DNA from: a virus
Length of the DNA: 20,944 bases
Virus record (IMG/VR): IMGVR_UViG_3300044956_000163
Location: 1 to 20,944 of that record
Strand: one strand, 5' to 3'
The notes below the pieces were generated by a model, which saw nothing but the letters and a program-made list of their open reading frames with translations, searched no databases and was not told the origin of the DNA. This document shows positions 1 through 17,077 of the stretch, one piece after another. How positions within the stretch are numbered: position 1 is the first letter of the stretch; every line of letters begins with the position of its first letter. The translations under genes and the position numbers were made by a program.

Positions 1-3000
1 TATTATCCAGGTGATCCTCAAACTACATCAACTTCTAGATATAAAGATGCATATCGTTTAATTCAGCAAAATAAACAAGAAATTATTGATGGCGCTTATG
101 CACAAATAATAATTGATTTTCCATCTTTTGTAAATCCAAATGAAACTAAGTGCAAAAGAGATATTGAATATTTCATTGATGCAGTTTCTTTAGATGTTGT
201 ACAGGGTGGTGGTAACGTATATTCTCGTAAGTTTGTTCAGCAATATTTTGTAGATGCAAGTACTCCATTACCTAATGGTTTACTCGGAGAAGAAGGTCCA
301 TCTGTTTCTGCATTTACTAAAGCTCGTAACCTAATGAAGGCAGCTCTTGCCAACCAACTTACAATTAAAGATCTTACCATTACTGCTGGTAAAGCAAACT
401 ATAATGGAACTGGTTTGACTATTGCAAACACAGATGCAGTATCTTGTGCTGATGTTCAATTAGCAATTGATACCCTTTCTTTCTTAATTACTTCAAGAAT
501 TGCTGCAGGTAATCTTACAGGATTACCTGCAGAATCATTTGGGTCTTCGCCAGCAGGAGAAACTAAGTGTAAGCGAGATATTGCATATATTGTTGATTCG
601 ATTGCTCAGGATATTTTCTGGGGTGGTAATGAATTTACGGTAGGTTCAGTTAGAGAGTATTTTACTCAAGCAGGTACACCAATTCCAAATGGTCTTGTTG
701 GCGAAATTGCACAATCTGTTGCTGCATTTAATAAAGCAAGAGAATGGTGTAAGCGAGCAATTACCAATCAACTTTACGCTAAGAATTTAAATATATCTAC
801 TGGACCTGCTGTTGCTAGTGGGTCAGGTGGAAATATTTCATATACGCAATCTGGAAATGGAGCAATTTGCATTGATGTTCAATCAACGGTAGATTCTTTG
901 TTTTCTATTGTAACTAGTGTTATAAATGCTGGTAATATTAATGCGCTTCCAACAGTAGACAATGGCGATTGGGATTGTGCTAATGTAAGACGAACTATTG
1001 ATACTTTAGTTAATATTATTAATAGTTCTCTTCTTGCTGGTAATTTAAATAATTTGCCAGTTAGAAATATTGGTCCATGGTCTCAAGTAAGTGATGCAAG
1101 TAAGTGTAAGCGTGATATTGGATATATTGTAGAAGCTATTACATCTGATTTGAAATTGGGTGGAAATATAAACACTATTAATGCCGCTGAATCATATTAC
1201 ACTGGTACTCAATTAGATTATATTGAAAATGAAAAGTTAGAAACTCTTGATGCATATCGTTATGTAAGAGATTTGGCGATTTCTGCAATGAGAAATCATA
1301 ACACCTACATTTCTAATGCATCTACAACTAACGGATCTTCGATTGTAACTATTCCAAGCACAGTTGGTCTTGCAATCGGCATGAAGGTTCGCAGCGTTGC
1401 AGCAATTCCAACGTCTTCATCAAGTACAATTACATATACAACAAATATTCCTACCACTGCATATATTAAAAAAATTGGTGATGGCTTAAACGGTCTCGCT
1501 ACAAATAAAATTCAACTTGGTACTCAAGGAAGCAAATTTGATATTGGATCAAATGTTAATGCTACCGCTACTTCCACTGGAGTTAATTTATATGTTGAAT
1601 TAACTCAAGGAGTTTGGAGTACAGAATTAGCTCCATCAACTGATTTTAGTATAACTCAAGATTATAATTACCTTACTCCTGGAGATATTGCAACTGGTGC
1701 TCCTGGTGGAGAATGTGCTAGTGTTGCAAGCACGCTCGTTAATTATTATCAAATTTTATCTACTGTTATTAACAGTGGAGTTGGGTCGGTTCCTAGAGTT
1801 GCATCAACTTTAAATACATCTGGTCTTGCACAAAGAGCTACTCTATTTTCTCTCACTGAGTTTGATAGCAATGGAATTCCCACAACTAACCCACACCAGC
1901 TTGAAACAGGAACACCAATTCGTCTTGTACCAAGAGCAAAAAGTGGGGTTAATGTAGACAAGAGAGTAATTCGTTTACCAAAAGGATTTGATACAAATAC
2001 AATTTACTATGTAATTGCTCCTGGCAGAAAAACCGATCCTTATGATTATTCTAATATTGGATTATTTAATGGTTCTAATCAACAGAATTTATTACTCGCA
2101 ACCAGTTCAGAAAATGCTGCTGCAGGTATTTACATCTATTCGTCCGAAACAGATGGAATTGATTCAAATGTAGAAATTGATGTCTATCAATACATTCTTG
2201 ATTTAAACTATGACTTACATCAGTATAAAACAAAAATTGTTGTGGGATCTTCTTCAATTCTTGAAACTGACAGACCACACGTATTTGATAAACCATCTAC
2301 TAATGTAACTCCACAATTAGTGTTTTTCCGTATAGGATCTGATATTGTAGGATCTTCACTACCTACACTATCATCAACATTTGGTGGCGCAACTATTTCT
2401 AGCAAAACACTTTTTTATGTTCGTTACGTTAGTAGCACAAGATTTACAATTCACGAAACATTTGCAAATGCTCGTGATAATATCAATCCAATCTCTTTCC
2501 AAACAGTAATTGGCCAACCAGTAATTAACCCAACAAACCAAACAGGAAGCGGTCCAGAATTCTACACATTTGCTGATAAGCGTAGATCACCACTTAGATA
2601 CGATCCTAAAATTGGCGTCTCACCCACAGATGGTTGCTGGTATATAGAAACTCTGTCTACTGGAAACACTATTATTCCTAGAATAAAGCAGTCAGATTAT
2701 GCTGGAAGATTGAGAACAACTGATTCTTATTTTGAAAGAATTGAAGACAACAGAACAAAAGAGGATAGAATCTATCGTCTGCGTTATGTAGTACCTAAAA
2801 ATCTTAAGACAGTTCGTGATCCTATCAGAGGATTTGTACTTAAAATTCGCACAGATGAAAAGAGAAGATTACTACCACAAAAAATTCTTCTCAAACCAAC
2901 TTCAACAGGTGCAGATACAGCAACTCTGCTTGCTCCTGTATCAGGAGAGCGTCTTGGGTTATCCTTACAAGAGCAAATTACGCTCAATCCAAACTTCTCT

Positions 3001-6000
3001 TCTACATACGATCCATCACCATTTGGTAATCCAAAAAGATTGGAAACAAATGCAAAGGTAGCATTTACTGTTCAATCTGCTAGAAAAGTTTTGCTCAATG
3101 GCAAAAATTATCTACAGTTGAATGTTTTTGATATTGGTATTGATGCGGAAGCTTACAAAACCAAGATCTTTACAACTGTTAAAATTTCTTCGCCAGAAGG
3201 AGGTAATGGATTTTTTGTAGCAAGCGTAATAAATTCAAACAACACCAACAGAGTAACATGGGCAGGTAATTGTTCTGGCACTGCTTATGTGCACGGATAC
3301 TTTGCATATGAAAACGAATACTATATGATTCTGAAGGATTTCACTGGAAATTCTTTCATTGATTATTATGCAGCAACACCTACCGTTTTCACCCAAGGTT
3401 CTGTAACTGCAACTTTGCTTGACAAACCTAACAGTGGTAGATCTGATATTATTAATAATCCATATGTTGTTGAGGGTGCGAATGTTTACACCTTAACTCC
3501 TGGCGATAGAGTTAACGATGACAATGGTGTTTCTTACACCATCGCTGAAGTAGAAGATGTTCCTGATATTCATAACACATTCTACATCTTTGATATTAAT
3601 ACGATTCGCAGAAGAATTTCTGGTCAGCAAGATGGCATTTACTACTTAACTTGTATTCGTGGCGACATCAGCCCATATCCTACTGGATCTGGTGTTGGTA
3701 TAAACTTCAGAAACTTTAAGTTCTCGCAACCAGTTTCTAAACTTTATCCTGAGTTCTACAAGAACGATCCAGAGTGGTATAAGGGTGTTGATATTTCAAC
3801 CACAACGCTATCCGATCCGCCTCCAACTGTATCTACTGCTGACAACTATGTACATGGTTTGGTCACAGTTAATGATGCTAAGAATAGTTTAACTAAGGAA
3901 TTGATTCTTGATTTTATTCAAGATCCTGGTACTGGTGGATATACTTTCTCTGGAGATTCTTCAATTAAAGCACAGTCAGGAACTGCATCTGCTGGTTCGG
4001 AAAGCAGAAAAATTCCTATTAATGGAAATTCTTTATATCCAACAGAAGGAAAACTTTATGTAGAACTTCGCAGACCATCGATTGCTCGTGCAGGTAACCA
4101 CACGTTTGAGTATCTTGGTTTTGGTCCTGGTAACTATTCTACAGGTCTTCCTGCCCGTCAGGAAATTGTTCTCACGGATGTTCAAGATTTTTACTCCCAA
4201 GCAAAAAAACAGGATGCTGGAATTGTTTTCTACACTGGTTTAAACTCTAATGGAGATCTTTATATTGGTAATAGAAAAATTAATGCTATTACTGGAGAAG
4301 AAACATTCTTAGAATCTGCAAAACTTGTAGAATCTTCTGATGAAATTGATCCAATTGATGGACTAGTAACTACCTTTGACACTGCAGTTACCTTTAATGA
4401 AATTATTACAGTAAATGGTTCAGAAGGAAAAGCAGAAAGTTTCTTCAATGCTCCAATCGTTATCAACAACACCACATCATTTGGATCTGTTGAGAACTTT
4501 CCATCACTTAAAATTGTTACGGGAGAAGGTACAATTATTGGATATGATCCTTATTTAGAAATCAATATTTCTCAACAAAAAACTGGTGATATTATTTTAC
4601 ATCAAGGTAGAATTCAAACATCAGTAGTTGATTTCAATCCAAGAGGATTGCAAGATTATCAGATAATGACTGCGTTATCTAATAGAACTCCTGATCTTAC
4701 AAATACATTTGGTATTTCAACTAGTGGACCATCACAGTTACAAAACACTAATTTTGGTAGTAAATTCCCACTTGTATCAGGATTAATTCAACTCAAAGGT
4801 GATCAAACACTCTTTACTGGTTCTTTGGGATGGATTTATGCTAACGATTATATTCGCATTGAAAATCGTTCTGGTACCATCGGTGGTTTTACTTTCAATC
4901 CTCAAATTATTGGCATTCAAGGTGCTGCGACGGGCACCACTGTACGTTTAAACTGGAATCTTGGTATTACAAACAATTCACTAAACATTACATCATCTTC
5001 ACAAATTCGTATCACTGGTGCTTCTGGTTCTCTCGGTTCTATTAATGGAGTGTGGCCTGTCTACAGTACAAGTCAATCGCCATTTAATGGTGCTAATAAT
5101 TTTGTAACGATTATTGTTAATAGCAATCTTCCTCAATTTACTGGTATTCCACTACCTAACAATGGTTATCCAGTTGATTCAGTAACACAACCAGGTATTG
5201 TAATTGAAAAATCTAAATCTGCATTCAAAGAGTTTGGAGTTCTTGGTTCTGAATCGATTAGAACCGAAACTGAGACAATTGGTGATTACAAGGTTGGTAT
5301 TAACACCGTTGCTCGTTCTGCACATTCTGCATATCAAACTGCATTCGTTGATGCTTCTACGACTCCAAGAGCAAACTTAGATGTTGTTGGTACTGGATTT
5401 ATCAGTGGTAAGAAGATTCTTTCTTATCTCACTCAAACTGGAACTAATAAGACCGAAACTAATCGAGATGATGCTTTCGTGGTTGGTGGTGATAGTGCAA
5501 ATCCACTTACTGCTGCAGCAACTTTAAGAATTGCTACTACGAATAATGGCAGAGTAGGTATTAATGTAAATAATGCAAATCTCGATAGAACCTTAGTCGT
5601 TAGCGGAAATGGTAGAATTACTGGTGATTTTAAATTCGAATCTGATATCGAGGTAAATGGTGGTGATATTACAACTACGAACGCAGTATTTAACATTGCT
5701 AATCAACCAACTGCATTAACATTTGATGCTGGTGCATGGGCAACTACGGTAAATCTGTTTAATAGTGCCACTGCATCACAAACAATTAATATTGGTACAT
5801 CAGCAACTAATACTGGTAATTTAAATATTCATAGTAATATTTACAACTCTACTGTAAATATTGCTACAGCACCACAAATTACAAATCCATCTACACCAAC
5901 TCAACCGCCATCGTCTTTAATTACATTTGGTGGTGCTATTAACAATCAATCTCAAAGTATTTTTAGAGTAAGAAACTATCAAACTGTTCTCGATGGTATT

Positions 6001-8367
6001 TTAGAAATTAAGGGAGATCAAATTGCGGCGACAACTCCTAATAAAAAGTTTATCATGTTCCCATCTAATTTGACTTCTATTAAAATTGCTCCTACTGCTG
6101 GAGAAGTTGAAATTGGTGGATCTGTGGGAACAACTTTACTGCGTAATGGATTGAAAGTTAACAACAAAGCAATTTTTGAGAGTGATATTGAACAAAATGG
6201 TGGATTCCGAAATTCTAGCGTTGGTGTAACAAGAAACACTTTTGGAACAATTAAAATTTCGAAAGTTTCTAGAACAGGAAACACAGCAACAGTAACAACT
6301 ACGCTTAATCACAATTTAAGTACTAATAATCAAGTTAGAATTCTTTGCAGTAATAGTCAATTTACAACTATTGGCACCGTGTCGATTACTGTTTCATCTC
6401 TAACAGAATTTACTTATCAAACTACTGGAACTGGAACAATTACACAGCAAACTGCAACAGGAACAGTAATATTACCAAATGTTGGTAAATCACATAGTCA
6501 AGGATCATTGACTGGAATTGGTGGTGCTACATCAACTCTTTTAAATGTTGATTATTATGAATATATTGAAAATATTGCATCTAGTCAAAATATTTCTGGA
6601 TTAGTAACAATTACAAGTCCTAACACTGCTACAAAACTAATAATCTCAGATAATACTTTAGTTCCTGGAAACGCAATTATTTTCACAAGTGTTGGTAATT
6701 TTACTGGAGTAAATACGGCAACAACATATTATGTGTTGAATGCAGATACAAACGGTGTCACACTTTCAACAACTTCTGGTGGTATACCAATTACTGTTAA
6801 TTATACTAGTGGAACTACATCTCCAGGAACTGCTGCTGTTAGGCTTAAGAATACACTTATAGATCCGATTGGTAGTTCAGCAGTTAGTTCTACAACCACA
6901 ACTATTCCGATCAATAATCCTGATGGATTGAATCAAATCGGTATTTATTTATTAATTAATACTGAAATAGTTAGAACCACAAATTTACCTTCAACGGTTA
7001 CTCCTTATACAGTTGAAGTTGAAAGAGGAGTTGATGGCACAGCGCCAATTGCACATCAACCAAGCGATAAAATTGTAAGATTAATAAAAACAGAGAATGC
7101 ATCTTATATTTTCCCTGCTGCTGTTGGTGATTTGATAACAAATATAAATTTAGCCGAATTTAGTGGCGCTTTTAAAATAAATGATATTTTAAGAATTGAT
7201 AAAAATACTTCATCTGAAGAATTTGTTACTATTACAACCATTAACGAATCTGATGCACAAACATTTTCTATTAACAACGGTGGGTCGGGTGCATCTAAGC
7301 AAGTTACATTTAATGTTATAACAACCACTGGAAATACAGATATTTTAGGTGATGTAACGATTGGTTATGATGATGGAACATTATCAAGCACATCAAGTTT
7401 AGTATCTGGAAAAATTGTAACTGGTGGCGGAAACTTAAAAGTACATAATTCCATAGAATTAAGTGGAAATACATCTACAACAATACCAGAAAAACAGTAT
7501 TTTGTAATTACTAATGGATCATCCCCTCGTCTTTATGTAGATTCTAACACAGGAAATACCAGATTATATAATGGTGCTAATTTCCAAGTGTTTAAGGACT
7601 CCTTCTTTGCTTCAGGAACATTTGATAAATCTAGAGTTGATGTAGCAAGCGATATAGCATTTGAAATTCTTGGATCTTCTGGAAATACTAAATTATCTGG
7701 AACATTAACTATTGGTGATGATTTTACAATTAAAAATGGATTGAGTGGGACAAGTACTATCAAGATGGATGCTCAATTGGGCACAACTGTTATTGGATTA
7801 CCTTTAACTGCTGCTGCGAATGGGGCTACATTAACTTTAAATGCTACATATAGCACAACAGCTCCTGCTGCTACTACTGTATTTTCAATTGAAAATCTTG
7901 GCATAAGTAATAATAAACCATTTAGAATTAGATTAGATGGTTCTATAGAGGCATTTGGCATTGATAATTATTACACAAAGAATGGCGGAAGAAGAACAGA
8001 ATTTATTGCCGCAACAAGCGGTGAAGTTGCTCAGAGATTAAAACCAAATATTCAGTATTTGGTAAGACCAAATGGTAATTTAATTTTAAATCTACCTTTA
8101 GCAAGTGATTGTGTAACGGGAGATATTGTTAGAATTATTGATATTCAAGGAAACTTGAATTATGATATTGCATTAAAAATTAGATCAGAACCTGGCACTA
8201 ATATTCAAAAATCTCAAGGTGGAACAAACTCATATTCTGGCGGAGAATTGATTGTTAACACACCTAATGCAGGATTTGGACTTATGTTTGTTGGCGATTC
8301 TGATTCTAAAAGTCCTTCTACTGCTATACCTAGTGATAACAGAGGTTGGTGGTTAGTGGAGGTATAA
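1..8367 (+). CDS. Giant virion structural / tail fibre protein (5' end missing)
   Basis: The reading frame is open from base 1, so the gene starts upstream; the ATG at 334 is internal. At least 2788 residues are present. Order seen: Cys-centred helical repeats (about 142-1803); a middle region with ERIEDNRTKEDRIYRLRY (about 2737) and LYVELRRPSIARAGNHTFEY followed by GPGNYSTG and NSNGDLYIGN (about 4054-4275); Ser/Thr/Asn/Gly-rich beta-type repeats (about 5200-6200) such as TINIGTSATNTGNLNI; three small beta modules (about 6253-7083); and a C-terminal domain ending PNAGFGLMFVG...RGWWLVEV. From memory, the middle and C-terminal signatures occur in very large structural proteins of T4-like cyanophages, which supports a virion surface or tail role. 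The exact position in the particle cannot be told. Local GC falls from about 40% in the middle to about 30% in the last third, suggesting a mosaic history. The stop lies just before the next gene's start. Confidence 0.9.
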   Translation, partial: YYPGDPQTTSTSRYKDAYRLIQQNKQEIIDGAYAQIIIDFPSFVNPNETKCKRDIEYFIDAVSLDVVQGGGNVYSRKFVQQYFVDASTPLPNGLLGEEGPSVSAFTKARNLMKAALANQLTIKDLTITAGKANYNGTGLTIANTDAVSCADVQLAIDTLSFLITSRIAAGNLTGLPAESFGSSPAGETKCKRDIAYIVDSIAQDIFWGGNEFTVGSVREYFTQAGTPIPNGLVGEIAQSVAAFNKAREWCKRAITNQLYAKNLNISTGPAVASGSGGNISYTQSGNGAICIDVQSTVDSLFSIVTSVINAGNINALPTVDNGDWDCANVRRTIDTLVNIINSSLLAGNLNNLPVRNIGPWSQVSDASKCKRDIGYIVEAITSDLKLGGNINTINAAESYYTGTQLDYIENEKLETLDAYRYVRDLAISAMRNHNTYISNASTTNGSSIVTIPSTVGLAIGMKVRSVAAIPTSSSSTITYTTNIPTTAYIKKIGDGLNGLATNKIQLGTQGSKFDIGSNVNATATSTGVNLYVELTQGVWSTELAPSTDFSITQDYNYLTPGDIATGAPGGECASVASTLVNYYQILSTVINSGVGSVPRVASTLNTSGLAQRATLFSLTEFDSNGIPTTNPHQLETGTPIRLVPRAKSGVNVDKRVIRLPKGFDTNTIYYVIAPGRKTDPYDYSNIGLFNGSNQQNLLLATSSENAAAGIYIYSSETDGIDSNVEIDVYQYILDLNYDLHQYKTKIVVGSSSILETDRPHVFDKPSTNVTPQLVFFRIGSDIVGSSLPTLSSTFGGATISSKTLFYVRYVSSTRFTIHETFANARDNINPISFQTVIGQPVINPTNQTGSGPEFYTFADKRRSPLRYDPKIGVSPTDGCWYIETLSTGNTIIPRIKQSDYAGRLRTTDSYFERIEDNRTKEDRIYRLRYVVPKNLKTVRDPIRGFVLKIRTDEKRRLLPQKILLKPTSTGADTATLLAPVSGERLGLSLQEQITLNPNFSSTYDPSPFGNPKRLETNAKVAFTVQSARKVLLNGKNYLQLNVFDIGIDAEAYKTKIFTTVKISSPEGGNGFFVASVINSNNTNRVTWAGNCSGTAYVHGYFAYENEYYMILKDFTGNSFIDYYAATPTVFTQGSVTATLLDKPNSGRSDIINNPYVVEGANVYTLTPGDRVNDDNGVSYTIAEVEDVPDIHNTFYIFDINTIRRRISGQQDGIYYLTCIRGDISPYPTGSGVGINFRNFKFSQPVSKLYPEFYKNDPEWYKGVDISTTTLSDPPPTVSTADNYVHGLVTVNDAKNSLTKELILDFIQDPGTGGYTFSGDSSIKAQSGTASAGSESRKIPINGNSLYPTEGKLYVELRRPSIARAGNHTFEYLGFGPGNYSTGLPARQEIVLTDVQDFYSQAKKQDAGIVFYTGLNSNGDLYIGNRKINAITGEETFLESAKLVESSDEIDPIDGLVTTFDTAVTFNEIITVNGSEGKAESFFNAPIVINNTTSFGSVENFPSLKIVTGEGTIIGYDPYLEINISQQKTGDIILHQGRIQTSVVDFNPRGLQDYQIMTALSNRTPDLTNTFGISTSGPSQLQNTNFGSKFPLVSGLIQLKGDQTLFTGSLGWIYANDYIRIENRSGTIGGFTFNPQIIGIQGAATGTTVRLNWNLGITNNSLNITSSSQIRITGASGSLGSINGVWPVYSTSQSPFNGANNFVTIIVNSNLPQFTGIPLPNNGYPVDSVTQPGIVIEKSKSAFKEFGVLGSESIRTETETIGDYKVGINTVARSAHSAYQTAFVDASTTPRANLDVVGTGFISGKKILSYLTQTGTNKTETNRDDAFVVGGDSANPLTAAATLRIATTNNGRVGINVNNANLDRTLVVSGNGRITGDFKFESDIEVNGGDITTTNAVFNIANQPTALTFDAGAWATTVNLFNSATASQTINIGTSATNTGNLNIHSNIYNSTVNIATAPQITNPSTPTQPPSSLITFGGAINNQSQSIFRVRNYQTVLDGILEIKGDQIAATTPNKKFIMFPSNLTSIKIAPTAGEVEIGGSVGTTLLRNGLKVNNKAIFESDIEQNGGFRNSSVGVTRNTFGTIKISKVSRTGNTATVTTTLNHNLSTNNQVRILCSNSQFTTIGTVSITVSSLTEFTYQTTGTGTITQQTATGTVILPNVGKSHSQGSLTGIGGATSTLLNVDYYEYIENIASSQNISGLVTITSPNTATKLIISDNTLVPGNAIIFTSVGNFTGVNTATTYYVLNADTNGVTLSTTSGGIPITVNYTSGTTSPGTAAVRLKNTLIDPIGSSAVSSTTTTIPINNPDGLNQIGIYLLINTEIVRTTNLPSTVTPYTVEVERGVDGTAPIAHQPSDKIVRLIKTENASYIFPAAVGDLITNINLAEFSGAFKINDILRIDKNTSSEEFVTITTINESDAQTFSINNGGSGASKQVTFNVITTTGNTDILGDVTIGYDDGTLSSTSSLVSGKIVTGGGNLKVHNSIELSGNTSTTIPEKQYFVITNGSSPRLYVDSNTGNTRLYNGANFQVFKDSFFASGTFDKSRVDVASDIAFEILGSSGNTKLSGTLTIGDDFTIKNGLSGTSTIKMDAQLGTTVIGLPLTAAANGATLTLNATYSTTAPAATTVFSIENLGISNNKPFRIRLDGSIEAFGIDNYYTKNGGRRTEFIAATSGEVAQRLKPNIQYLVRPNGNLILNLPLASDCVTGDIVRIIDIQGNLNYDIALKIRSEPGTNIQKSQGGTNSYSGGELIVNTPNAGFGLMFVGDSDSKSPSTAIPSDNRGWWLVEV
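142..1290 (+). repeat. CKRDI-type protein repeats in the giant structural protein
   Basis: Two clear copies of about 72 residues lie at 142-360 and 559-774, and a diverged third starts at 1096. Each opens with (E/A)(T/S)KCKRDI.Y..(D/E)A or a close variant, followed by a D...GGN turn. Copies one and two continue with ..YF..A.TP.PNGL.GE...SV.AF.KAR and end NQL. The third keeps the opening but then diverges into a YYTG...LETLDAYRYVRDLAISAMRN ending. The pattern suggests helical bundle units. I recall similar Cys-Arg-Asp repeats in cyanomyovirus structural proteins. Confidence 0.8.
445..1803 (+). repeat. C..V..T(I/V)D.L protein repeats interleaved with the CKRDI repeats
   Basis: Four shorter related segments start at about 445, 868, 976 and 1714. 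Each begins with Cys-x-x-Val (CADVQ, CIDVQ, CANVR, CASVA), continues with a helix of the type ..(T/A)(I/V)D(T/S)L...I.S.(I/L).AGN, and ends near (L/V)P. Copies two and three are in near-direct tandem. They alternate with the CKRDI-type units, so the N-terminal part of the protein is a composite helical repeat array. The fourth copy is the most diverged. Confidence 0.7.
8358..8362 (+). promoter_or_regulatory. Ribosome binding site that sets the start at 8370
   Basis: GGAGG ends seven bases before the ATG at 8370 and lies inside the last codons of the giant gene. An in-frame ATG at 8346 lies upstream of this site and has no comparable signal. The ATG at 8370 is therefore the preferred start, and translation is probably coupled to the preceding gene. 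Confidence 0.85.
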
Positions 8368-8369
8368 AC

Positions 8370-9464
8370 ATGGCATTTGCAGATGCAACAAAATATGGAA
8401 AACTTAAATCCTTATCTGGATATCCAGTAGGAACAATTATTCCTTGGTCTGGATTAGAAGAAACTATTCCTACTGGATGGAGAATTTGCTCGGGTGCTTT
8501 TTTAAATGTCACTGATTATCCTAAATTGTATAATTCTATAGGAAATACTTATGGAGGCACACCTGGATCTACTTTTGGATTGCCAAATCTTCCTGGTAAT
8601 GGAATAATAGATATTTTTGTGGGGCATTATAAATATTTGCAAAGAACAACTCCTACTTATGGACCAGGATCATCAAATGATAATCCTATGGACGGATTGC
8701 CTACTGCTCCTTGGACACCAAATCCAACTCTATCACGAAATAACGACCCATATTGGAATCAAGTTGGTGGCGCAAATTCCGGAAATTCTGGATCTGGTGC
8801 TGGAAATCCAACTCCTTCTACAATTGATTTGGTGGGTGTGAGAAGTAATGCCACTCCTGGTTTAAGTGCTATTGTTAGTGGACTTGCATTAACACCTGGA
8901 ACTTTGCAAAGGGCATATAGTGTTTTACCTAGAAAACTTGGAGACGGGCATATTCCAGTGCATACTCATTCAATAACTACCAGCGGAGAAATATCACATG
9001 TACAAAGCCTTGCCACATTCCGTGACTATGCACGCACTTGGAGATATAATGGATGTGACGAGAGCATAGACCGTGAAAATGATGCCAAAACAACTGTGGG
9101 GTTTAGAAATACCACGACTGGCAATCATTATGTTGCTGGAGGCGGATCAACTACAACAACCACTGAACTACCTGGGAGTGGATTTTCGGACGGTGACATG
9201 CTCGCTCACGTGGGCGGTCGTAAAAATTTTCACACCAGTATAAATGCTCCAATTAGAACTTGGGATTCTACGGGTGGACATGATCATGGATCAAATACTA
9301 TTACATTTACTAGTGCTTTATCAGTAAAAGCTACAAATACATACACAGATATTGTTTCTAGCGATGTAATTATTGATAATAGTCCTGGACTTGACGCAGG
9401 AACCATAAATATGACTAGCGCCTGTCCATCTTTAACAATGTTGTTTATAATTAAAGCATTCTAA
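8370..9464 (+). CDS. Tail collar-domain short tail fibre / tail tip protein
   Basis: The product is 364 aa. The N-terminal 80 residues fit the phage tail collar domain family (as in T4 gp12 and microcystin-dependent proteins): YPVGTIIPWSG....IPTGWRICSG..LN.TDYP.LYN.IG..YGG.....F.LPNL. A Gly/Pro/Ser/Asn-rich section follows. Two HxH motifs are present, H198-T-H200 and H304-D-H306. In T4 gp12 and gp37 such motifs bind metal ions in the trimeric fibre tip; metal binding here is inferred. The protein ends SLTMLFIIKAF, a hydrophobic strand shared in form with the next two genes. It probably trimerises and acts as an adhesin or distal fibre. Start chosen by the GGAGG at 8358. The next gene begins one base after the stop. 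Confidence 0.9.
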   Translation: MAFADATKYGKLKSLSGYPVGTIIPWSGLEETIPTGWRICSGAFLNVTDYPKLYNSIGNTYGGTPGSTFGLPNLPGNGIIDIFVGHYKYLQRTTPTYGPGSSNDNPMDGLPTAPWTPNPTLSRNNDPYWNQVGGANSGNSGSGAGNPTPSTIDLVGVRSNATPGLSAIVSGLALTPGTLQRAYSVLPRKLGDGHIPVHTHSITTSGEISHVQSLATFRDYARTWRYNGCDESIDRENDAKTTVGFRNTTTGNHYVAGGGSTTTTTELPGSGFSDGDMLAHVGGRKNFHTSINAPIRTWDSTGGHDHGSNTITFTSALSVKATNTYTDIVSSDVIIDNSPGLDAGTINMTSACPSLTMLFIIKAF

Positions 9465-9465
9465 T

Positions 9466-10398
9466 ATGGGAACTACCTATGCATTTCAACGAGGAAAATA
9501 TGGTGGCCCTTGTGGTACAATTTTTCCATATTTCCAAACTTTAATAGATTTAAATCCAAAACAAGCAGAGTATGTTGATAATATACCAGCTGGTTATCTT
9601 CGTTGCAGGGGGCAGATTTTGAATGCAGAACAATACCCACAATTAGCTTCAATAATTGGTATTGGTTCTTCTTGCATTTATAGAAAAAGTGGTATAACGT
9701 TGCAAGAACAAACTTCAACTGGTACTGGTGGTCAAATACAGTTACCTGATTTAGGGTCGAAGTATATTACTGCCGCAACAACTCCTGGTAATTATTTGAA
9801 TACAACTACATTGAATACATCAACAAATACTGAAGTTACTAGAGCTGGAGTTGCTATTGATCTCACATCAAATGCTTCGACTACAAATGTTATTTCTTTT
9901 AATTATAATGGAATTTTTAAAATGACACAAAGAAATGTTCCTGTAAGTGGAACGATTAGAGTGTCTGCTCCTTCTTCAACCAAAAGAAGCTCTGTCTCAG
10001 AAGGTGAAATTATGGGGCATGGCCATGGTAGTACTCTTTCGACAGGAAGATATATTCTTGACAAATTATCATGTCAATATAAAGCTACTAGAACTGGTAT
10101 ATGCATATTAGGGCGTATAGGTTGCTGCCCAATTTCACAAGGCCAGGCGGACACTCCTAGCGGAAGAGCTTGGGAAACATTTACTCTGGATATTTCTGGT
10201 AGTGATGAAGTGACAAATCACGCTCACACTGGATTATTTCCTAGTATTACAGGATCTAGTTCAACAGCAACATTAAATTATACAGAAATTCCTTCTTCTG
10301 GATTAGTTACAAATGTAACGTTTAATAAATTTAATAAATTTTCGATAGATAGAATATCGTCAAAATTTATCTTATGCGAATATCTAATTAAATTTTAA
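9466..10398 (+). CDS. Second collar-type tail tip protein, cysteine-rich
   Basis: The product is 310 aa. The N-terminus is a divergent collar-like domain: YGGPCGTIFPYF....IPAGYLRCRGQILNAEQYPQLASIIG...QLPDLGSKY. Two HxH motifs follow, H185-G-H187 and H252-A-H254, and the C-terminus is KFILCEYLIKF, echoing its neighbours. The stretch between the HxH motifs, where fibre tips usually carry exposed loops, holds C203, C213, C220 and C221. Eight cysteines in all is unusual for a fibre tip; they may be structural, metal-binding or simply variable. The gene follows its neighbour after one base and precedes the large adhesin after three, so the three are probably co-transcribed and sit in related virion positions. 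No clear Shine-Dalgarno site precedes it, so coupled translation is likely. Confidence 0.8.
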   Translation: MGTTYAFQRGKYGGPCGTIFPYFQTLIDLNPKQAEYVDNIPAGYLRCRGQILNAEQYPQLASIIGIGSSCIYRKSGITLQEQTSTGTGGQIQLPDLGSKYITAATTPGNYLNTTTLNTSTNTEVTRAGVAIDLTSNASTTNVISFNYNGIFKMTQRNVPVSGTIRVSAPSSTKRSSVSEGEIMGHGHGSTLSTGRYILDKLSCQYKATRTGICILGRIGCCPISQGQADTPSGRAWETFTLDISGSDEVTNHAHTGLFPSITGSSSTATLNYTEIPSSGLVTNVTFNKFNKFSIDRISSKFILCEYLIKF

Positions 10399-10401
10399 AA
10401 A

Positions 10402-13400
10402 ATGTCTATTACTATCTCATCACTTACGCCTGTTAATCCATCAGTTTTTGCTGGAGGATCAATAACTTTTGCAGTTTCTGCTACATCAAATATACCAGCA
10501 GCTACTCTAGTATATCTTTGGCAAGTAAGTAGTAATGGCACATCTTGGCTCGATTTACCTAATAATGGTGGATCTAGTATCACGTTGACAAATATACACG
10601 CAACAGCAAGTAATGATCAAATTCGTGTTCAAATATCAGAATTTACACCATATAGTCCAGTAACTTACAATTACACCGTAACTGGTACGGGATCTTCTGC
10701 TTGGACATTTAGCGGATCAGCAAGCGGAAATAATCCTTCTCTATCTGCAAAAGTTAGTGATAGATTAAATTTTGCAGTAAGTTCAACAAACAATAATACA
10801 TTTTACATTAAAACAGCACCTGTTGGTGGTACTACTAATACCGTAGCTACTGGTATTACAAATAATGGAACACAAAATAATACAGTAGTTTGGGACACTA
10901 CTGCAGCTGCGGCAGCAACATATTATTATATTTCAGCAGAACAACCTAATAATATGGTTGGACCGATTACTTTATCTCCTGCTGTCAGCACACTAAATTC
11001 TACTGTTTATAGTAATGATGTTGGATTTGCCAGAAGTTTGACAGTTTTAATACCTCCATCAATAACTGTAATTGATTTAAATCAACCTTCATATACACTT
11101 GCTACGGGATCAAATTTATCATTAACAATAGATGCAAGTACAGATAGTAGTTTGTCAGATTATATTAATACGGATGTAAATAATGTTAGTCCAATAGCAT
11201 TTCAGTGGCAACAAAGCACTGATAATGGAGTAACTTGGACTAATCTTAGTGCAGGAACAAATATAACTATTATTGAGACATTATTATCTTTTCCAACAAT
11301 TCCAGTAAGTTATTATAAACGATCTGTTTTAACTCTTTCAAATATATCATTTGCTCAAAATAGTATACGATATCGATGCCTTGTTTCTTATACAAAAGGG
11401 GGCGTTACCGCTTCTAATAGTCCTTTAGCGACAAATACAGTATTATTATTAGTAAATCCTCAAATAATTATTCTTAGGCAACCAGGAGAAGGAACAGATA
11501 CAACAAGCACGATATCTTACAACACTGGCATCACTAATAGTGGAAATGCTACTCTGAGTGTTAATGCATACACTACAGCAACAACAACGTTATCTTATTC
11601 ATGGGAATGGAAATGGAGTACTGAGAGTGCATATACGACAATTGGGACATCAACTACTCCATTTAGATTAGTTGCTGGAACCACAACTAATTCTCCAATT
11701 TTAAAATTAGAAAGAGTTAGATTGTCAAATGGCACAGAAAATACAACTGTTATGAATTTGCGAGTAATTATATCTGGATTGTCGGGAGAACAATCTATAG
11801 TGTCTTCTGCTGCATCTTTAATATTGACACAAACTGCAATTATTCGTAATCCGATATCCACAGAATCCATAATTGAAGATAGATATGGTCCAATTTTAAA
11901 TAGATCCTCATATCCAGAATTATTACAGACATTAACCATTAGTGCGGGTGTAGATGTTTCAGTTGACACGGGATTGAAAGGTCCGATTACTCTTGGGTGG
12001 CAAAGACAATATGAATCAGAAACTACATTTACTGATGTTGGTCTCGTTAAAAATGATTCAGGAACAAATTTACCACCAGCTAGTAGTACTGCTCCTAGTT
12101 CTGCAGGAATACATACATTTACAACTCCAGCATTAAGAAGAAGCACAGATCATTCATCAAAGTATAGATTGTATGTAACATATAATAGCGGATATAGTAA
12201 CGGAAGCACTGCAGTTGTTACAACTTATTCAACTCCTTGCACATTAAATGTATATCAAACTGCTTATATTGATAATAATCCAGGAAATTCAGAATCTTTT
12301 GAAAATAGTATAGCAATATTTGCAGTAACTGCTGCTCCTTCTAGTGGCACAATCATAAATTATTCATGGGAATATAGTATCAATGGAACAGCATGGTCTC
12401 CAATAGTTGATACTTCTCCATTATTAAATGTTTCTGCGATAACTTTTTCTGGATACACAGTAACAGTTACCTGTTCATCCCATAATTTAAATGCTGGAGA
12501 TAAAGTTTATATTTCTGGAGTTACTCCAATTGTTTACAACGGTACTTTTACTGTTTCTAGTTCTAATTCTACTTCTTTTCAATACACCGTTCTTTCTATT
12601 CCTACATCAAATGGTATTACTTCCGGAAGCACTGTTCACAAATCTCCTAAATTTTCTGGAATTAATACTAACACGTTATCTATTACTACTGCTAATTCTT
12701 CCATTGTTCAAAAATATTACAGATGTATTGTTAGTGTACCAGATTCTTTATCTACTGTGCAATCTTCTTTTGGTATTCTTAGTTTGCGTTCAGATAAAGT
12801 TCTGACAATTACATCTATCAACGACAAACAAGTTCAAGAATACAACTCTGTATCATGGACTGTTGTTGCTACCACGAGTAGTTTATCAGAACCTTCATAC
12901 CAATGGCAAAAGAGTACAAGTGCTTCGGGTTCCTGGACTAACATAAATAATGCAAATAGTTCTACTTATGAAATTCCATCCGTTATTCTTACCGATGCTG
13001 GTTTTTATCGCTGTTTAGTTACAAGTGCAGGTTCTAGTACATCATTTAGTAATAGTGCTAAATTACAAGTATTTCCTGTTGCAATTAATATTACTACAAA
13101 TATTCCAACATCTGTTACTATTGATGAAGATTTTCCTGGTAGAGAATTAAAAATAGTAGCTACCAGCACAATACCTGGATTGATTAATTATCAGTGGGAA
13201 GTAAAACGATCTGGAACTTCAACTGGAACTTCAACTTTTGGTAATGCTCCCGTAGGTTTTAATCAAACAACTATTGATACTGATGTTTATAGAATAAATG
13301 CACCATCTAGAACCAATAATGGTGATGTTTATAGATGTAAATTAACACAATCAGGAAATCCAAACACATATTATACAAATGAATGTACTATTACTGTAGA

Positions 13401-16011
13401 TAGAATTTTTAATTATTACGCTGATATTGACATTAAAAAAGTTACTGAGGGTACAAACGTAGATTTATCTTTATCACCTTCATTTACTGGAACTGATTTA
13501 CCTTCTTATCAATGGGAAGCTAGTACTAATAATGGAACTAGTTGGTCAACTTTAACTAATGGCATGACGGCTTTTGGTGGTATAAATGTAAATGGTGTTA
13601 CAACATCAGTTTTACTTTTATCTAGTATAACAAGTACTTTAAACAATGTTATATTCAGGTGTGCTGTAACACTTAATCAAGTAACGAAAGTGACATTTTA
13701 TAGATCATCTGTTCAAACTATACCAATTTCTCCAGCTGGTAATTTATTTTACACACAACAGATAAAATTATCTGTATCAGCGTCTGTTCCACTCGTAGCA
13801 ACCTACACAGATCAACGTCAAAAAGTTGGTGCAGCAATTGGAACGGTAATATGTGTTCCAAAACCTTTTGATTATGTTGAAAATCCTGCTGCAACTACTG
13901 ATGATGCTGATAGGTGGAGAGTCGCTCTTACGGGAATACTTTTTGGTGGATATTCAGCGCAAGGCATTACTTCCGCTACCAAGCCATATGGATCTAAAGA
14001 TAGATTTCCTGGATTTATTGAAATGCGTGGTCAATTATTAAAAGCTGAATGGTTTCCAGAGTTGGCTAGAATTTTAGGAACAAAATATGGAGGAACTATA
14101 TCTAGTTCTAGTGTATATCCAGATTATGGACCTGCCGACCTTTTTAGATTACCATGTCCATATGGAAAATATTTGCTAGGAACAGGAAATATTGATAATA
14201 ATAAATCATCTGCTTCTGTGTTTCCTTTATATGCTCCTGATGGAACATCAGGTGGTCAAATAAATGTTGCTGGATCTATGGGAGGAGAATATAATTTTGA
14301 AAAACAAGATCAGCTATCGCCAGGAAATCCAGGAATTAGTGGACAAATTGATGGAACAGCACCTACTGTTTCGCCACTTTTATTTACAGTGGGAATTCAT
14401 AAAACTGATGGATGGGAAAATTGCAACAACGAAGTAGAAACTGCATTTATTGGAAACACTAGTTATAAAATATCCGATTCTTCTGGTATTTCACAAGTTG
14501 CTTTAAGTGGTCCGCCGCTTCACTCTCATACTATTAACGCAATTATATTTGTTGATGCTAATAAAGCTTACGGGCAACTTCTTGATGGTAACTTATCCGG
14601 TAGTTGCCTTGCTACTGCGTCTTTCTCTGCTGGTGGATCAATATCAGAGGGACCAGAAGGTGTTTTAATAAATACTGGTAATCCATCAAGAACACATAGT
14701 CATACTCTTTCATTTGATCCGAATGATTCTTCTCTTGGGGGTAGTACTGGAGTTTCAATTACTCCTCCTAGTAGCGCAACCGTATATGTGTTTCCGGGCC
14801 CTGGTAGTTATTCATTTACTGTTCCTAACCCACCTCCTAACTCACCTGACGGTAATCTCGTTAGTTTCAAAATAAATCATTATTCTGGATCTGGTGGTGG
14901 CGGTGGAAACGATGCAGCAAACCCAGGATCTGGTGGCGGTGCTGGTGGTAGAATTGTAGGAACGGTTAAAAATATACCTGGGGGTTCTCTATTGAGAGTT
15001 ATTGTTCCAATGGGCGGAGGCGGTGGTCGCGGTTGTATTGCGAGTGCTCCGGGCGGTGCTTCGGGTGAATCATTTCAAACTGGTTTTGGCGGTGGTTTTG
15101 GCGGAATATCTGGAAAAAATGGATGTTCTGGATCTGGTGGCGGTGGTGGTGGCGCTGCTCTCATGTATTGTGATACAGTTGGTCCAATACCAACTGGTGG
15201 TTCTAATCCAGCTGGATTAGAGAAGGGAACTATTTTGTATATTGTCGGCGGCGGTGGCGGCGGCGGTGGTAGTGGATTTCATCAAAACGTTCAGAGTCAA
15301 AGATTTAACGGTGAAGATACACTTACAACTTGGGCATCTACTGCAATCAACAGTGGCGAGTTTTATTTGGACCAACAAAAATTAGATTTTACAGATTGGG
15401 GTGTGTATACTACTCTACAATATGGTAGATCGGGTGCAAATAGATCCGGATCTTATAACACTATCAGACCCGAAGACGTTGACGATGGTGGCGGCGGCGG
15501 TGGCGGCGGCGGTGGATATCGAGGTGGTGCTGGTGGTATAGATCCAGGAGCTGACATTAATGCTCAAAATGGAAGAGCTGGTACTTCTGCTTACAATGCA
15601 TCGTTTTTTGATGGTCCTCCTTCTTTATTACGTGGTGTTCCTGGTGGCGCAACCGGAGGAGGTGCGAACGATGGAAATGGTGGGTCTGCTACTATAGAAC
15701 TTATTACTTCTTCTGCAGTACCAGGTACTTCCCCTTCAAGTGGCGGTGTTAATTCACCAGATCACAAGGAAAATTGGGGAGTAATTAGAGGTTCTTCCAA
15801 TCAATTTTTATCAGAATCAATCAATCATCACTTTGATCCTACTTCAACATCGGAAAGTTTATCAATATCTTTGCCTCCTGGAACAGTAACTATGAGACCT
15901 ACCTCTAGAACAGCATTTGATAATAATCTTAAATTTTATTTAAGAAATAATGAATCAATTCCGTTACAACAACCATATTTTAGATTGAAATATCTAATCA
16001 AAGCTTTTTAA
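10402..16011 (+). CDS. Large modular tail fibre adhesin: Ig-like repeats, collar domain, HxH tip, glycine-rich domain
   Basis: The product is 1869 aa. Residues 2 to about 1116 hold eight or nine Ig-like beta domains, marked by Y.WQ.S.NG..W..L and ..YRC.V strands. A collar-type domain follows at about 1144-1263 (IGTVICVP...RFPGFIEMRGQLLKAEWFPELARILGTKYGG...LFRLPCPYGKYL). HxH motifs lie at H1374-S-H1376 and H1432-S-H1434. A glycine-rich domain with runs of 8 and 10 glycines spans about 1498-1763. The final 80 residues contain HHF at 1809-1811 and end YFRLKYLIKAF. Ig-like domains on phage virions are known as weak surface binders, and glycine-rich domains form the receptor-binding tips of T2-like gp38 adhesins; applying either here is inference. 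The gene sits in a run with two smaller collar proteins and is followed by a gene with a fibre-chaperone signature. The ATG has only an A-rich leader, so its start relies on the close gene junction. Confidence 0.9.
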   Translation: MSITISSLTPVNPSVFAGGSITFAVSATSNIPAATLVYLWQVSSNGTSWLDLPNNGGSSITLTNIHATASNDQIRVQISEFTPYSPVTYNYTVTGTGSSAWTFSGSASGNNPSLSAKVSDRLNFAVSSTNNNTFYIKTAPVGGTTNTVATGITNNGTQNNTVVWDTTAAAAATYYYISAEQPNNMVGPITLSPAVSTLNSTVYSNDVGFARSLTVLIPPSITVIDLNQPSYTLATGSNLSLTIDASTDSSLSDYINTDVNNVSPIAFQWQQSTDNGVTWTNLSAGTNITIIETLLSFPTIPVSYYKRSVLTLSNISFAQNSIRYRCLVSYTKGGVTASNSPLATNTVLLLVNPQIIILRQPGEGTDTTSTISYNTGITNSGNATLSVNAYTTATTTLSYSWEWKWSTESAYTTIGTSTTPFRLVAGTTTNSPILKLERVRLSNGTENTTVMNLRVIISGLSGEQSIVSSAASLILTQTAIIRNPISTESIIEDRYGPILNRSSYPELLQTLTISAGVDVSVDTGLKGPITLGWQRQYESETTFTDVGLVKNDSGTNLPPASSTAPSSAGIHTFTTPALRRSTDHSSKYRLYVTYNSGYSNGSTAVVTTYSTPCTLNVYQTAYIDNNPGNSESFENSIAIFAVTAAPSSGTIINYSWEYSINGTAWSPIVDTSPLLNVSAITFSGYTVTVTCSSHNLNAGDKVYISGVTPIVYNGTFTVSSSNSTSFQYTVLSIPTSNGITSGSTVHKSPKFSGINTNTLSITTANSSIVQKYYRCIVSVPDSLSTVQSSFGILSLRSDKVLTITSINDKQVQEYNSVSWTVVATTSSLSEPSYQWQKSTSASGSWTNINNANSSTYEIPSVILTDAGFYRCLVTSAGSSTSFSNSAKLQVFPVAINITTNIPTSVTIDEDFPGRELKIVATSTIPGLINYQWEVKRSGTSTGTSTFGNAPVGFNQTTIDTDVYRINAPSRTNNGDVYRCKLTQSGNPNTYYTNECTITVDRIFNYYADIDIKKVTEGTNVDLSLSPSFTGTDLPSYQWEASTNNGTSWSTLTNGMTAFGGINVNGVTTSVLLLSSITSTLNNVIFRCAVTLNQVTKVTFYRSSVQTIPISPAGNLFYTQQIKLSVSASVPLVATYTDQRQKVGAAIGTVICVPKPFDYVENPAATTDDADRWRVALTGILFGGYSAQGITSATKPYGSKDRFPGFIEMRGQLLKAEWFPELARILGTKYGGTISSSSVYPDYGPADLFRLPCPYGKYLLGTGNIDNNKSSASVFPLYAPDGTSGGQINVAGSMGGEYNFEKQDQLSPGNPGISGQIDGTAPTVSPLLFTVGIHKTDGWENCNNEVETAFIGNTSYKISDSSGISQVALSGPPLHSHTINAIIFVDANKAYGQLLDGNLSGSCLATASFSAGGSISEGPEGVLINTGNPSRTHSHTLSFDPNDSSLGGSTGVSITPPSSATVYVFPGPGSYSFTVPNPPPNSPDGNLVSFKINHYSGSGGGGGNDAANPGSGGGAGGRIVGTVKNIPGGSLLRVIVPMGGGGGRGCIASAPGGASGESFQTGFGGGFGGISGKNGCSGSGGGGGGAALMYCDTVGPIPTGGSNPAGLEKGTILYIVGGGGGGGGSGFHQNVQSQRFNGEDTLTTWASTAINSGEFYLDQQKLDFTDWGVYTTLQYGRSGANRSGSYNTIRPEDVDDGGGGGGGGGGYRGGAGGIDPGADINAQNGRAGTSAYNASFFDGPPSLLRGVPGGATGGGANDGNGGSATIELITSSAVPGTSPSSGGVNSPDHKENWGVIRGSSNQFLSESINHHFDPTSTSESLSISLPPGTVTMRPTSRTAFDNNLKFYLRNNESIPLQQPYFRLKYLIKAF
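10405..13750 (+). repeat. Tandem Ig-like domains in the large adhesin
   Basis: Core tryptophan strands are visible near 10510 (YLWQVSSNGTSW), 11200 (FQWQQSTDNGVTW), 11600 (YSWEWKWSTESAY), 11990 (LGWQRQYESETTF), 12361 (YSWEYSINGTAW), 12898 (YQWQKSTSASGSW), 13190 (YQWEVKRSGTS) and 13508 (YQWEASTNNGTSW). Most are followed 40-60 residues later by a Y/F-RC-V or equivalent strand. A segment at about 10690-11050 may be another, more diverged unit. Copies are dissimilar at DNA level, so the array is old or built by shuffling, not by recent duplication. Confidence 0.8.
12436..12639 (+). other. Small beta module inserted inside an Ig-like domain
   Basis: Residues about 679-746 of the adhesin read AITFSGYTVTVTCSSHNL.AGD.VYISG......YNGTFTVS....TSFQYT. 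This pattern (H-N/G-L, G-D-x-V-x-I-x-G, N-G-T-F-x-V, T-x-F-x-Y) is a widespread phage beta module. It lies between the tryptophan strand of one Ig-like unit (YSWEYSINGTAW at 12361) and that unit's closing strand (KYYRCIVSV at about 12712), so it looks like a domain inserted into a loop. A related module occurs in the giant protein at about 6253-6474. Confidence 0.65.
14893..15690 (+). other. Glycine-rich adhesin domain
   Basis: Residues about 1498-1763 are dominated by glycine runs (SGGGGGN, GSGGGAGG, MGGGGGRG, GFGGGFGG, GSGGGGGGA, then eight Gly at 15247-15270 and ten Gly at 15487-15516) separated by mixed, non-repetitive stretches. This layout resembles the glycine-rich domains of phage adhesins, in which polyglycine II helices form a scaffold and the intervening loops bind the receptor. 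The longest loop, about 71 residues between the 8-Gly and 10-Gly runs, is the best candidate for a specificity loop. Poly-Gly codons are mostly GGC and GGT, giving sharp local GC peaks in an AT-rich gene. Confidence 0.75.
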
Positions 16012-16013
16012 TC

Positions 16014-16024
16014 TAAATAAATAA
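16014..16024 (+). promoter_or_regulatory. Possible late promoter, T4-like TAAATA type
   Basis: TAAATAAATAA fills the 25-base gap between the adhesin gene and the next. It resembles the TATAAATA element used by T4 and the NATAAATA motif reported for cyanophages. The region is very AT-rich and the ATG is only 13 bases away, which would leave almost no leader. Chance occurrence is a serious alternative. Confidence 0.25.
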
Positions 16025-16036
16025 AAGAACAAAATT

Positions 16037-17077
16037 ATGAATAAGATTTTAACAATATATCTAGATCCTCATGTAGGTCATCCAGATTTAACAAATCCTT
16101 TTACGTTCATTTACAAGGGATATCCTTTGCAAATCGATGAGCAAGATTATACCAATTTTATTTCTGTTTTGCCAGAATTTTGGTATACGGAAAATGATAA
16201 AATAATTTTATTTACTTTGTTTGAGAATGGTAACTATTATTGTGAAAGACAAAAAAGAGTTTATAATTATGCTATTAAAACGTTTGAAGAAATATTATAT
16301 CGTTTCGATTCCGTAGACGAAAATACACTAAATAAATTTATTCATATATTAATAACATTTTTTGAAGAAATAAATATTAAAAATCTGAATAATATACAAC
16401 AAAAATTAATTGAAGAAGTTCAAAATTATTCTTTTTTAAAAACATTTCTTTTAAACACTAGAAAATCTATTCTTTCAAAAACGGATTTTATGTTTTTAAG
16501 AGATTATGATTCAGTATCGGAAGAAAAATTAAAACAGTGGAAACAATATCGTCAACAATGGAGAGATATTACAAAACAAGATGCTTGGCAGTTAGGTGAT
16601 TTGCATAAAGTTAATATACCAGTTTCTCCATCGGAAAAAGACAATTTTACTTATACAATAATGGCTGAACTTGGTCATCAAAATACTCAAATAGAACAAT
16701 ACATTCAATCCATTCAAAATGATGAAGATTTTGAAGAAAAAATGTCAATGGTAATTAATAGATATTGCGAATATTTATTAAAACAAAATATTATCCGCGG
16801 ATTGTCTAAATTTAAACTTCCCCTATTAGATCTAAAGTTAAATAATTTTTACAATAATGATTACAATAGTGAAGAATTTCTGAATGATGTAACTACTGAT
16901 TTTGAAGAATTTACCAGAAAAGTAGATATTGAATTGAAAAGAATTAATAGTGATTTGACAGTAAATGGTTTAATTTCTTATTATAAAAATATACCAAATA
17001 ATCAAGATTTGCCGCAAGAAGTAATTGATGTATTAAATGAATTACAAAATGTTTCTGAATCTGGAGAAGAAAAATGA
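16037..17077 (+). CDS. Protein with tail fibre assembly chaperone-like segment
   Basis: The product is 346 aa. Residues 142-198 carry the signature of phage tail (fibre) assembly chaperones (Phage_tail_APC-like): R142..IL.KTD......RDYD.VSEEKLKQW..YRQQWRDIT...D, followed by a VNIPVSP stretch equivalent to the usual W/I-P-V-x-P. Typical members are shorter and place the motif near the C-terminus; here about 140 residues precede it and about 150 follow, both without a family I recognise. Chaperones of this kind help fibre subunits fold and trimerise in the cytoplasm. The position just after three fibre genes fits that role. The gene is very AT-rich (15-22% GC in sampled 60-base lines), lacks a strong Shine-Dalgarno site, and its end overlaps the next start by four bases. 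Chaperone function is inferred from motif plus context. Confidence 0.7.
   Translation: MNKILTIYLDPHVGHPDLTNPFTFIYKGYPLQIDEQDYTNFISVLPEFWYTENDKIILFTLFENGNYYCERQKRVYNYAIKTFEEILYRFDSVDENTLNKFIHILITFFEEINIKNLNNIQQKLIEEVQNYSFLKTFLLNTRKSILSKTDFMFLRDYDSVSEEKLKQWKQYRQQWRDITKQDAWQLGDLHKVNIPVSPSEKDNFTYTIMAELGHQNTQIEQYIQSIQNDEDFEEKMSMVINRYCEYLLKQNIIRGLSKFKLPLLDLKLNNFYNNDYNSEEFLNDVTTDFEEFTRKVDIELKRINSDLTVNGLISYYKNIPNNQDLPQEVIDVLNELQNVSESGEEK

Follow-up and report, generated by a model that had tools for sequence, protein, structure and literature searches.

The large tail fiber P0001, encoded in a 20,944-base virus record (IMGVR_UViG_3300044956_000163, positions 1-20,944; the whole stretch is called the window here), appears to be a collar/HxH fiber that carries an inserted TNF-like/glycine-rich (TG) domain, and with it a second receptor-binding tip in a single chain; we put the probability of this reading at about 0.7. 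The reading rests on the architecture of P0001, the homology of its C-terminal return segment to the tails of fibers that lack the insert, the predicted fold class of the glycine-rich segment, the grouping of insert-bearing fibers in a tree, and both the concentration and the type of sequence change between relatives. P0001 is laid out as follows, in window coordinates.

10402..16011, + strand: large fiber P0001, 1869 amino acids; a single open frame with Ig-like repeats, collar, HxH tip, TG domain, and return segment
14008..14127, + strand: Phage tail collar domain (PF07484), residues 1203-1242; 25 bits, cut-off 24
14521..14529, + strand: first HxH (HSH, residues 1374-1376)
14530..14694, + strand: inter-HxH segment of P0001; 12.1 substitutions per 100 bp against a near-identical contig (L006)
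14695..14703, + strand: second HxH (HSH, residues 1432-1434)
14767..15738, + strand: predicted TG domain, residues 1456-1779, from AlphaFold, Foldseek/VIA matches, and a PF21722 score near the cut-off; boundaries approximate
15247..15270, + strand: 8-Gly run; mean pairwise identity 1.00 in 6 lineages
15271..15486, + strand: loop between the 8- and 10-Gly runs, a candidate receptor-contact loop; substitution-rich, low model pLDDT
15487..15516, + strand: 10-Gly run
15739..16008, + strand: return segment with the final strand, at the C terminus; homologous to uninserted fiber tails

T4 fiber tips carry HxH motifs. A profile search of P0001 found matches to Ig-like and Collar domains, and the protein combines two features of a T4 gp12/gp37-like fiber, a collar domain (PF07484, 25 bits) and HxH motifs at residues 1374 and 1432. 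What sets it apart from its two small paralogues, P0002 and P0003, is the length of chain past the second HxH: 435 residues versus 58 and 56. An initial annotation, made from the sequence before this analysis, had placed the paralogues' C-terminal strand about 50-60 residues past the second HxH, had allotted more than 400 residues to the same interval in the large adhesin, and had described, past the second HxH and ahead of the final strand, a glycine-run domain as part of the fiber chain itself; our counts and the single open frame agree with all of this, and its coordinates for the loop between the 8- and 10-Gly runs (15271-15486) are exact. Past the second HxH, the runs of at least three Gly residues are 5, 3, 5, 3, 6, 8, 10, and 3 long, in that order, and residues 1480-1780 are 29% glycine. 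Runs of at least four are encoded by mixed GGT, GGC, and GGA codons. Across six lineages the runs are near-invariant (mean pairwise identity of 1.00 for the 6- and 8-Gly runs, 0.93 for the first 5-Gly run, and 0.94 for Asp plus the 10-Gly run) and are therefore not slippage noise.

An AlphaFold model of residues 1456-1779, built with 11 sequences, reached a predicted local distance difference test score (pLDDT) of 72.5 and a predicted template modeling (TM) score of 0.80. Its nine strands are separated by glycine stretches; pLDDT falls below 50 over much of the loop between the 8- and 10-Gly runs (G8-G10 loop; residues 1651-1687). The 23 PDB matches that Foldseek found at E ≤ 0.001 comprised 21 ALK/LTK chains and two for the Bxb1 tail tip; the Pam3 fiber was reached at E values of 0.015 and 0.034. 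With VIA-align, Z was 11.3-13.9 for ALK/LTK, 11.7 for Pam3 (root mean square deviation [rmsd] 2.3, 161 residues aligned), and 11.5 for Bxb1; overall, the ALK/LTK, Bxb1, and Pam3 rows spanned Z 11.1-13.9, and the next row scored 3.3. The top BFVD rows were phage proteins, including virion proteins of ACG-2014j and ACG-2014i, and rank 15 was the S-WAM2 collar protein (E = 1.2e-7, TM-score 0.41, rmsd 24.5). At the sequence level, six of the seven members of the insert-bearing clade matched PF21722 (Gly_rich_2) at E ≤ 1, the best at 5e-7, and the record of a near-identical relative scored 25.6 bits, above the cut-off of 24.3. Sequence searches of solved structures found no fiber or ALK relative of the glycine segment, their hits being composition-like or in the Ig-like part; a DNA-level search of the phage collection found no match, nor did tblastn with the glycine segment alone, a search in which low-complexity sequence is masked. 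On the model, the segment is best read as a TG domain, that is, a TNF-like beta-sandwich with glycine stretches between its strands. The initial annotation had proposed structure prediction of the C-terminal 500 residues; the model of residues 1456-1779 has TNF-like/glycine-rich matches in place of the gp38 scaffold that the annotation had named.

The TG domain looks inserted in the strand that returns from the HxH tip, judging from sequence homology on the C-terminal side. We surveyed HxH open reading frames (ORFs) in the window, in S-WAM2, and in loci L025-L127, with duplicates merged; because the loci are the best matches to queries from this cluster (best 80 of 451, plus 23), the survey figures are not population frequencies, and the filter (closed ORF, HxH, fiber-like C terminus) is loose, so a few non-fiber ORFs may be included. 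In 163 of 172 distinct HxH ORFs, the stretch past the last HxH is 40-159 residues long and lacks Gly runs of at least five. The other nine (the window, L025, L026, L028, L030, L031, L034, L103, and cultured S-WAM2) have more than 400 residues, every one with Gly runs of at least five. Loci with identical DNA in their overlap (L007, L008, and L009) or with one protein by the last 200 residues (L026, L027, L106, and L109) were counted once, and the copy in L032, which is cut by the contig end, lies outside the complete-copy count. The TG insert, about 320 residues long, is common to the window and six other complete relatives.

Against a profile of 29 uninserted tails, the C-terminal 82 residues of P0001 scored 61.9 bits (E = 5e-20 in a search of 10 sequences), and its flanks joined without residues 1456-1779 scored 71.2 bits (best domain for both scores). 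The return segment is thus homologous in sequence to uninserted tails; that it returns to the collar would follow from T4 gp37, in which the collar holds residues 811-881 and 1010-1026 (PMC6957217). In a tree of 45 of the 48 fiber proteins (two rows without HxH and L103 were left out), the seven insert-bearing clade members fall together with support of 94/96, just below the star threshold, and this group is nested in a starred set of 16 rows, nine of them without the insert. S-WAM2, on a very long branch, requires a second change on the tree.

The variation between close relatives involves P0001 and its two paralogues, which lie just upstream.

8346..9464, + strand: small HxH fiber P0002, a P0001 paralogue; listed from TTG 8346, ATG 8370 being the likelier start
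8970-9278, + strand: inter-HxH segment of P0002; substitution-rich
9466..10398, + strand: small HxH fiber P0003, a P0001 paralogue; its inter-HxH segment (10027-10218) is substitution-rich

The window and a near-identical contig (L001/L006) differ by 185 substitutions over 13,711 aligned bp. Four tip blocks, namely the inter-HxH segments of P0002, P0003, and P0001 plus the G8-G10 loop, total 882 bp and hold 94 of the 185; the rest of the alignment carries 0.71 per 100 bp. Densities per 100 bp are 8.4 for the P0002 segment, 17.7 for P0003, 12.1 for P0001, and 6.5 for the G8-G10 loop. After the second HxH, P0001 shows 27 nonsynonymous changes and no synonymous ones (neutral probability, 0.0004). 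The inter-HxH block of P0001 has no nonsynonymous excess (16.2 to 6.8; P = 0.79), as would fit a block replaced by a diverged allele; elsewhere, the same test gave P values of 0.084 for P0002, 0.26 for P0003, and 0.15 for the large protein upstream. A more distant comparison used six lineages that are 46-73% identical, leaving out the near copy L025: mean identity is 0.43 for the loop (residues 1624-1694) and 0.28 for residues 1664-1694, against 0.88-1.00 for the 5-, 6-, 8-, and 10-Gly runs.

The initial annotation had proposed comparing close relatives for hypervariability confined to the inter-glycine loops, and had named uniform conservation of those loops across relatives with different hosts as the contrary outcome. 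The long Gly stretches are conserved, several inter-glycine segments vary, and positions 15271-15486 are indeed rich in substitutions; the change is not confined there, since the inter-HxH segments are richer and part of the loop is conserved. The loop differs between close relatives, as a host-gripping part would be expected to, and is a candidate receptor contact.

We propose that the TG domain, about 320 residues long, would be set into the returning strand of a T4 gp12/gp37-like tip, past the second HxH. Its beta-strands would form a TNF-like sandwich, and its polyglycine stretches would pack as a glycine lattice that holds the variable loops outward; these loops, chiefly G8-G10, may then contact a receptor on the host surface. 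The fiber chain, presumably assembled as a trimer, would thus bear two variable recognition sites, one at the inter-HxH tip and one in the TG domain. If T4 gp37 is a guide, the inter-HxH segment would form the pole, with the TG domain on the returning strand. The chaperone encoded downstream is expected to aid folding, as gp25 does for Pam3 gp24. As to the lattice, the glycine-motif angles of Pam3 gp24 are close to those of beta-sheet (PMC9608196), and polyglycine II packing is therefore not to be assumed in P0001.

Several results weigh against this proposal. The TG model is a monomer, and a model of the 674 residues from the collar to the end, made with 3 sequences, had a pLDDT of 27. Foldseek TM-scores for the ALK/LTK, Bxb1, and Pam3 rows are 0.24-0.40, with high rmsd and gapped alignments, and the window itself scores 17.7 (whole protein), 21.5 (tail), and 23.6 bits (domain) against PF21722, under the cut-off of 24.3. 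The N-terminal flank of the insert aligns weakly, over only the HxH and a few residues. The fiber tree is midpoint-rooted; gain of the TG domain is consequently a simpler reading than loss, and its direction is not proven. The three inter-HxH blocks were picked after the alignments had been viewed, and the G8-G10 loop, which the initial annotation had named beforehand, is the weakest of the four. The nonsynonymous tests assume equal rates, and their P values are nominal, each for a single test; taken alone, the G8-G10 loop gives 14 nonsynonymous to 0 synonymous changes (P = 0.035), and residues 1-1376 are also in excess, at 38 to 4 (P = 0.016), so the excess is not special to the TG domain. 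Residues 1648-1663, inside the loop, are more conserved (identity, 0.60), and some Ig-repeat stretches vary more than the loop does (lowest 40-residue windows, 0.27-0.31 versus 0.43).

The initial annotation had assigned the glycine segment to the T2-type gp38 adhesin scaffold, and the insert might accordingly be a T2/S16-type gp38 adhesin fused to the fiber chain. In both, variable segments separate long Gly runs at a T4-like fiber tip, and hypervariable segments between glycine motifs, a gp38-type feature, do occur in P0001; an 8-Gly motif is found in S16 gp38 too (PMC6851490), and Pam3 gp24, which the P0001 model resembles, shares its architecture with S16 gp38 (29% similarity, 10% identity, and an rmsd of 2.7 Å over 52 residues; PMC9608196). 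A fused gp38 is nevertheless very unlikely. P0001 matches neither PF05268 (GP38) nor PF21721 (Gp38_N, the attachment domain) at E ≤ 1, while the positive control, S16 gp38, matches both (246 and 70.5 bits, respectively); PF05268 finds nothing in the seven clade members either, and hhalign of the glycine segment with the single S16 gp38 sequence gave a probability of 1.3%. We therefore rejected the gp38 scaffold at the level of sequence. PF05268 had no match in 10 records, mostly fragments, in a search that matched the S16 genome as a positive control. The listed fold matches of the model (ALK/LTK, Pam3, and Bxb1) are TG domains; S16 gp38 is not among the Foldseek/VIA matches listed, which excludes nothing. 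In addition, gp38 is a separate protein, whereas the collar, HxH motifs, and glycine domain of P0001 share one open frame. A remote structural likeness to gp38, by way of Pam3 gp24, may exist, and the P0001 domain may work as gp38 does, with a glycine scaffold and variable loops. The anatomy and the variable loop of the initial annotation are right; its family assignment is not borne out. It is scarcely credible that the segment is a disordered low-complexity linker or an artefact of slippage or assembly, for which its low complexity and the very low confidence of the first model might speak: the glycine codons are mixed, the positions of the runs are kept in six lineages (a conserved pattern that already contradicts this idea), the second model is better, and the domain is found on separate contigs.

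More serious is the idea that the TG domain is structural, a rigid spacer or protective knob, and that host recognition resides solely in the inter-HxH tip. Substitution density is higher in the inter-HxH segment of each of the three fibers than in the loop (8.4, 17.7, and 12.1 versus 6.5 per 100 bp), and 163 of the 172 surveyed HxH ORFs do without a long tail. We consider a passive role unlikely all the same: the ratio of 27 nonsynonymous to 0 synonymous changes, and the conservation of glycine while the loop diverges, suggest exposed loops under changing selection. The short-block change in three paralogous tips at once also raises the question of whether the substitution-rich blocks were made not by selection and recombination but by a targeted mutator, such as a diversity-generating retroelement. 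We give this little credence, since all twelve substitution kinds occur, along with indels; reverse transcriptase (PF00078) was found in none of 10 records, which, being mostly fragments, make this a weak argument. We thus favor a TG domain inserted into the HxH fiber as a second receptor-binding tip.

Related glycine domains occur in other proteins and positions. We searched 1,706 ORFs, to which the E values refer, with a TG clade profile built from seven sequences, which match it by construction. It matched separate virion proteins of ACG-2014j (E = 8e-15) and Sf-CH1b (E = 3e-5), the N-terminal part of the HxH fiber in L123 (E = 7e-20), and ORFs in L089, L098, L099, and L100; S-PM2 was not among the matches at E ≤ 0.001. 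The L123 fiber (L123:3888-8069) has Gly runs and a TG-like stretch ahead of its HxH pair and a tail of 89 residues. In six of six cases, none of 200 shuffles with the glycines fixed scored as high as the real sequence; more than composition is therefore shared. The glycine segments of S-WAM2, L103, and L127 did not match the clade profile and so are not counted as TG by sequence. A whole-protein scan of the glycine proteins of ACG-2014j, Sf-CH1b, and S-PM2 with PF21722 found no match at E ≤ 0.1, and in a genome search with the same family, ACG-2014j and Sf-CH1b gave matches under the cut-off, and S-PM2, L008, and L010 gave none. The L008/L010 domain matches the clade profile strongly (by construction; L026 has the same sequence) and PF21722 weakly when scanned alone. 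A bolder reading, which we offer as tentative and think doubtful, is that P0001 stacks two separately diversifying modules in one chain, that the tip loops of all three fibers change nearly in concert, by allele exchange or a targeted mechanism, with the rest of the fiber region >99% identical, and that the TG domain is mobile between virion proteins, N-terminal parts of fibers, and fiber tips across cyanophages.

Besides P0001, the window encodes the 3' part of a large structural protein, the two small HxH fibers, and a fiber assembly chaperone directly downstream of P0001.

16037..17077, + strand: tail fiber assembly chaperone; PF16778, phrog_4697

The large structural protein (window 1-8367) runs off the window start, with 2,788 amino acids visible; it has a weak Phycobilisome Pfam match at residues 16-76 (21.1 bits, cut-off 22.2), and a KCKRDIxY motif recurs in its translation. 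P0001 and the chaperone are separated by a gap at 16012-16036, and S-WAM2 likewise has a chaperone right after its fiber. An ORF of similar size follows the fiber in L026, L028, L030, L031, and L034; that of L026, under the handles L007/L010, matches the chaperone query. ACG-2014j, Sf-CH1b, S-PM2, S-H9-1, and ACG-2014h have instead a 2OG-Fe(II) oxygenase or prolyl-4-hydroxylase-like gene just after the fiber. The annotated relatives are Synechococcus and Prochlorococcus phages, each less than 60% identical (34 records with the collar-to-end query and 35 with the chaperone query), and the records examined that give a full lineage belong to Kyanoviridae. The relative with a 64% identical P0001 counterpart (collar to end) has the same DNA on an 85-kb contig; this contig bears a psbA/psbD-family gene (PF00124) for a photosystem reaction centre. 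A T4 gp23 capsid gene lies on a 103-kb contig that has the same chaperone C terminus. A T4-like cyanophage is thus the likely source of the window.

To our knowledge, the receptors and specificity determinants of cyanophages are poorly known. That four defined loops in three neighboring fibers differ between near-identical phages means that loop and receptor could be linked. We suggest that the TG domain, of which structures exist for Pam3 and ALK, is a module set into an HxH fiber tip, which links two fiber types. A TG domain within a fiber chain was already known from Pam3 gp24; its insertion in an HxH tip is apparently new, in that no description was found in the literature searched, outside which most subscription papers lie.

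The long-tailed fiber of S-WAM2 (BOW91_gp221; NC_031935; L018:4263-8072) resembles P0001 in having two HxH motifs followed by 904 residues with Gly runs of up to 10, and it ends in YFLVKYLIKAF; it differs in that its glycine segment matches neither the TG clade profile nor PF21722. With T4 gp12 and gp37, P0001 shares a Collar domain and a pair of HxH motifs. The tip of T4 gp37 is itself an insertion into the stem, and the passages of that study consulted here describe no glycine-rich TG domain for gp37 (PMC6957217). T2/S16 gp38 resembles P0001 in its glycine-rich motifs and hypervariable segments at a T4-like fiber tip but is a separate protein that caps gp37, with a beta-helix core that carries a three-layer polyglycine II sandwich and with its own Pfam families (PMC6851490). 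The extracellular TG domain of ALK/LTK is the best-scoring fold for P0001 (Z up to 13.9); these are animal receptor tyrosine kinases, and the likeness of fold shows no shared function. As a precedent for P0001 we point to Pam3 gp24 (PDB 7YPX and 7YFW), which has a domain of the TG type in its fiber chain and a dedicated assembly chaperone. According to that study, a single gp24 chain joins a TNF-like domain to a glycine-rich one, its variable distal tip is proposed to bind the receptor, its chaperone holds both domains, and it is similar to S16 gp38 and the ALK domain alike (PMC9608196). Unlike gp24, P0001 would carry its TG domain inside what is presumably the returning strand of its collar/HxH tip, at the end of a long Ig-repeat fiber.

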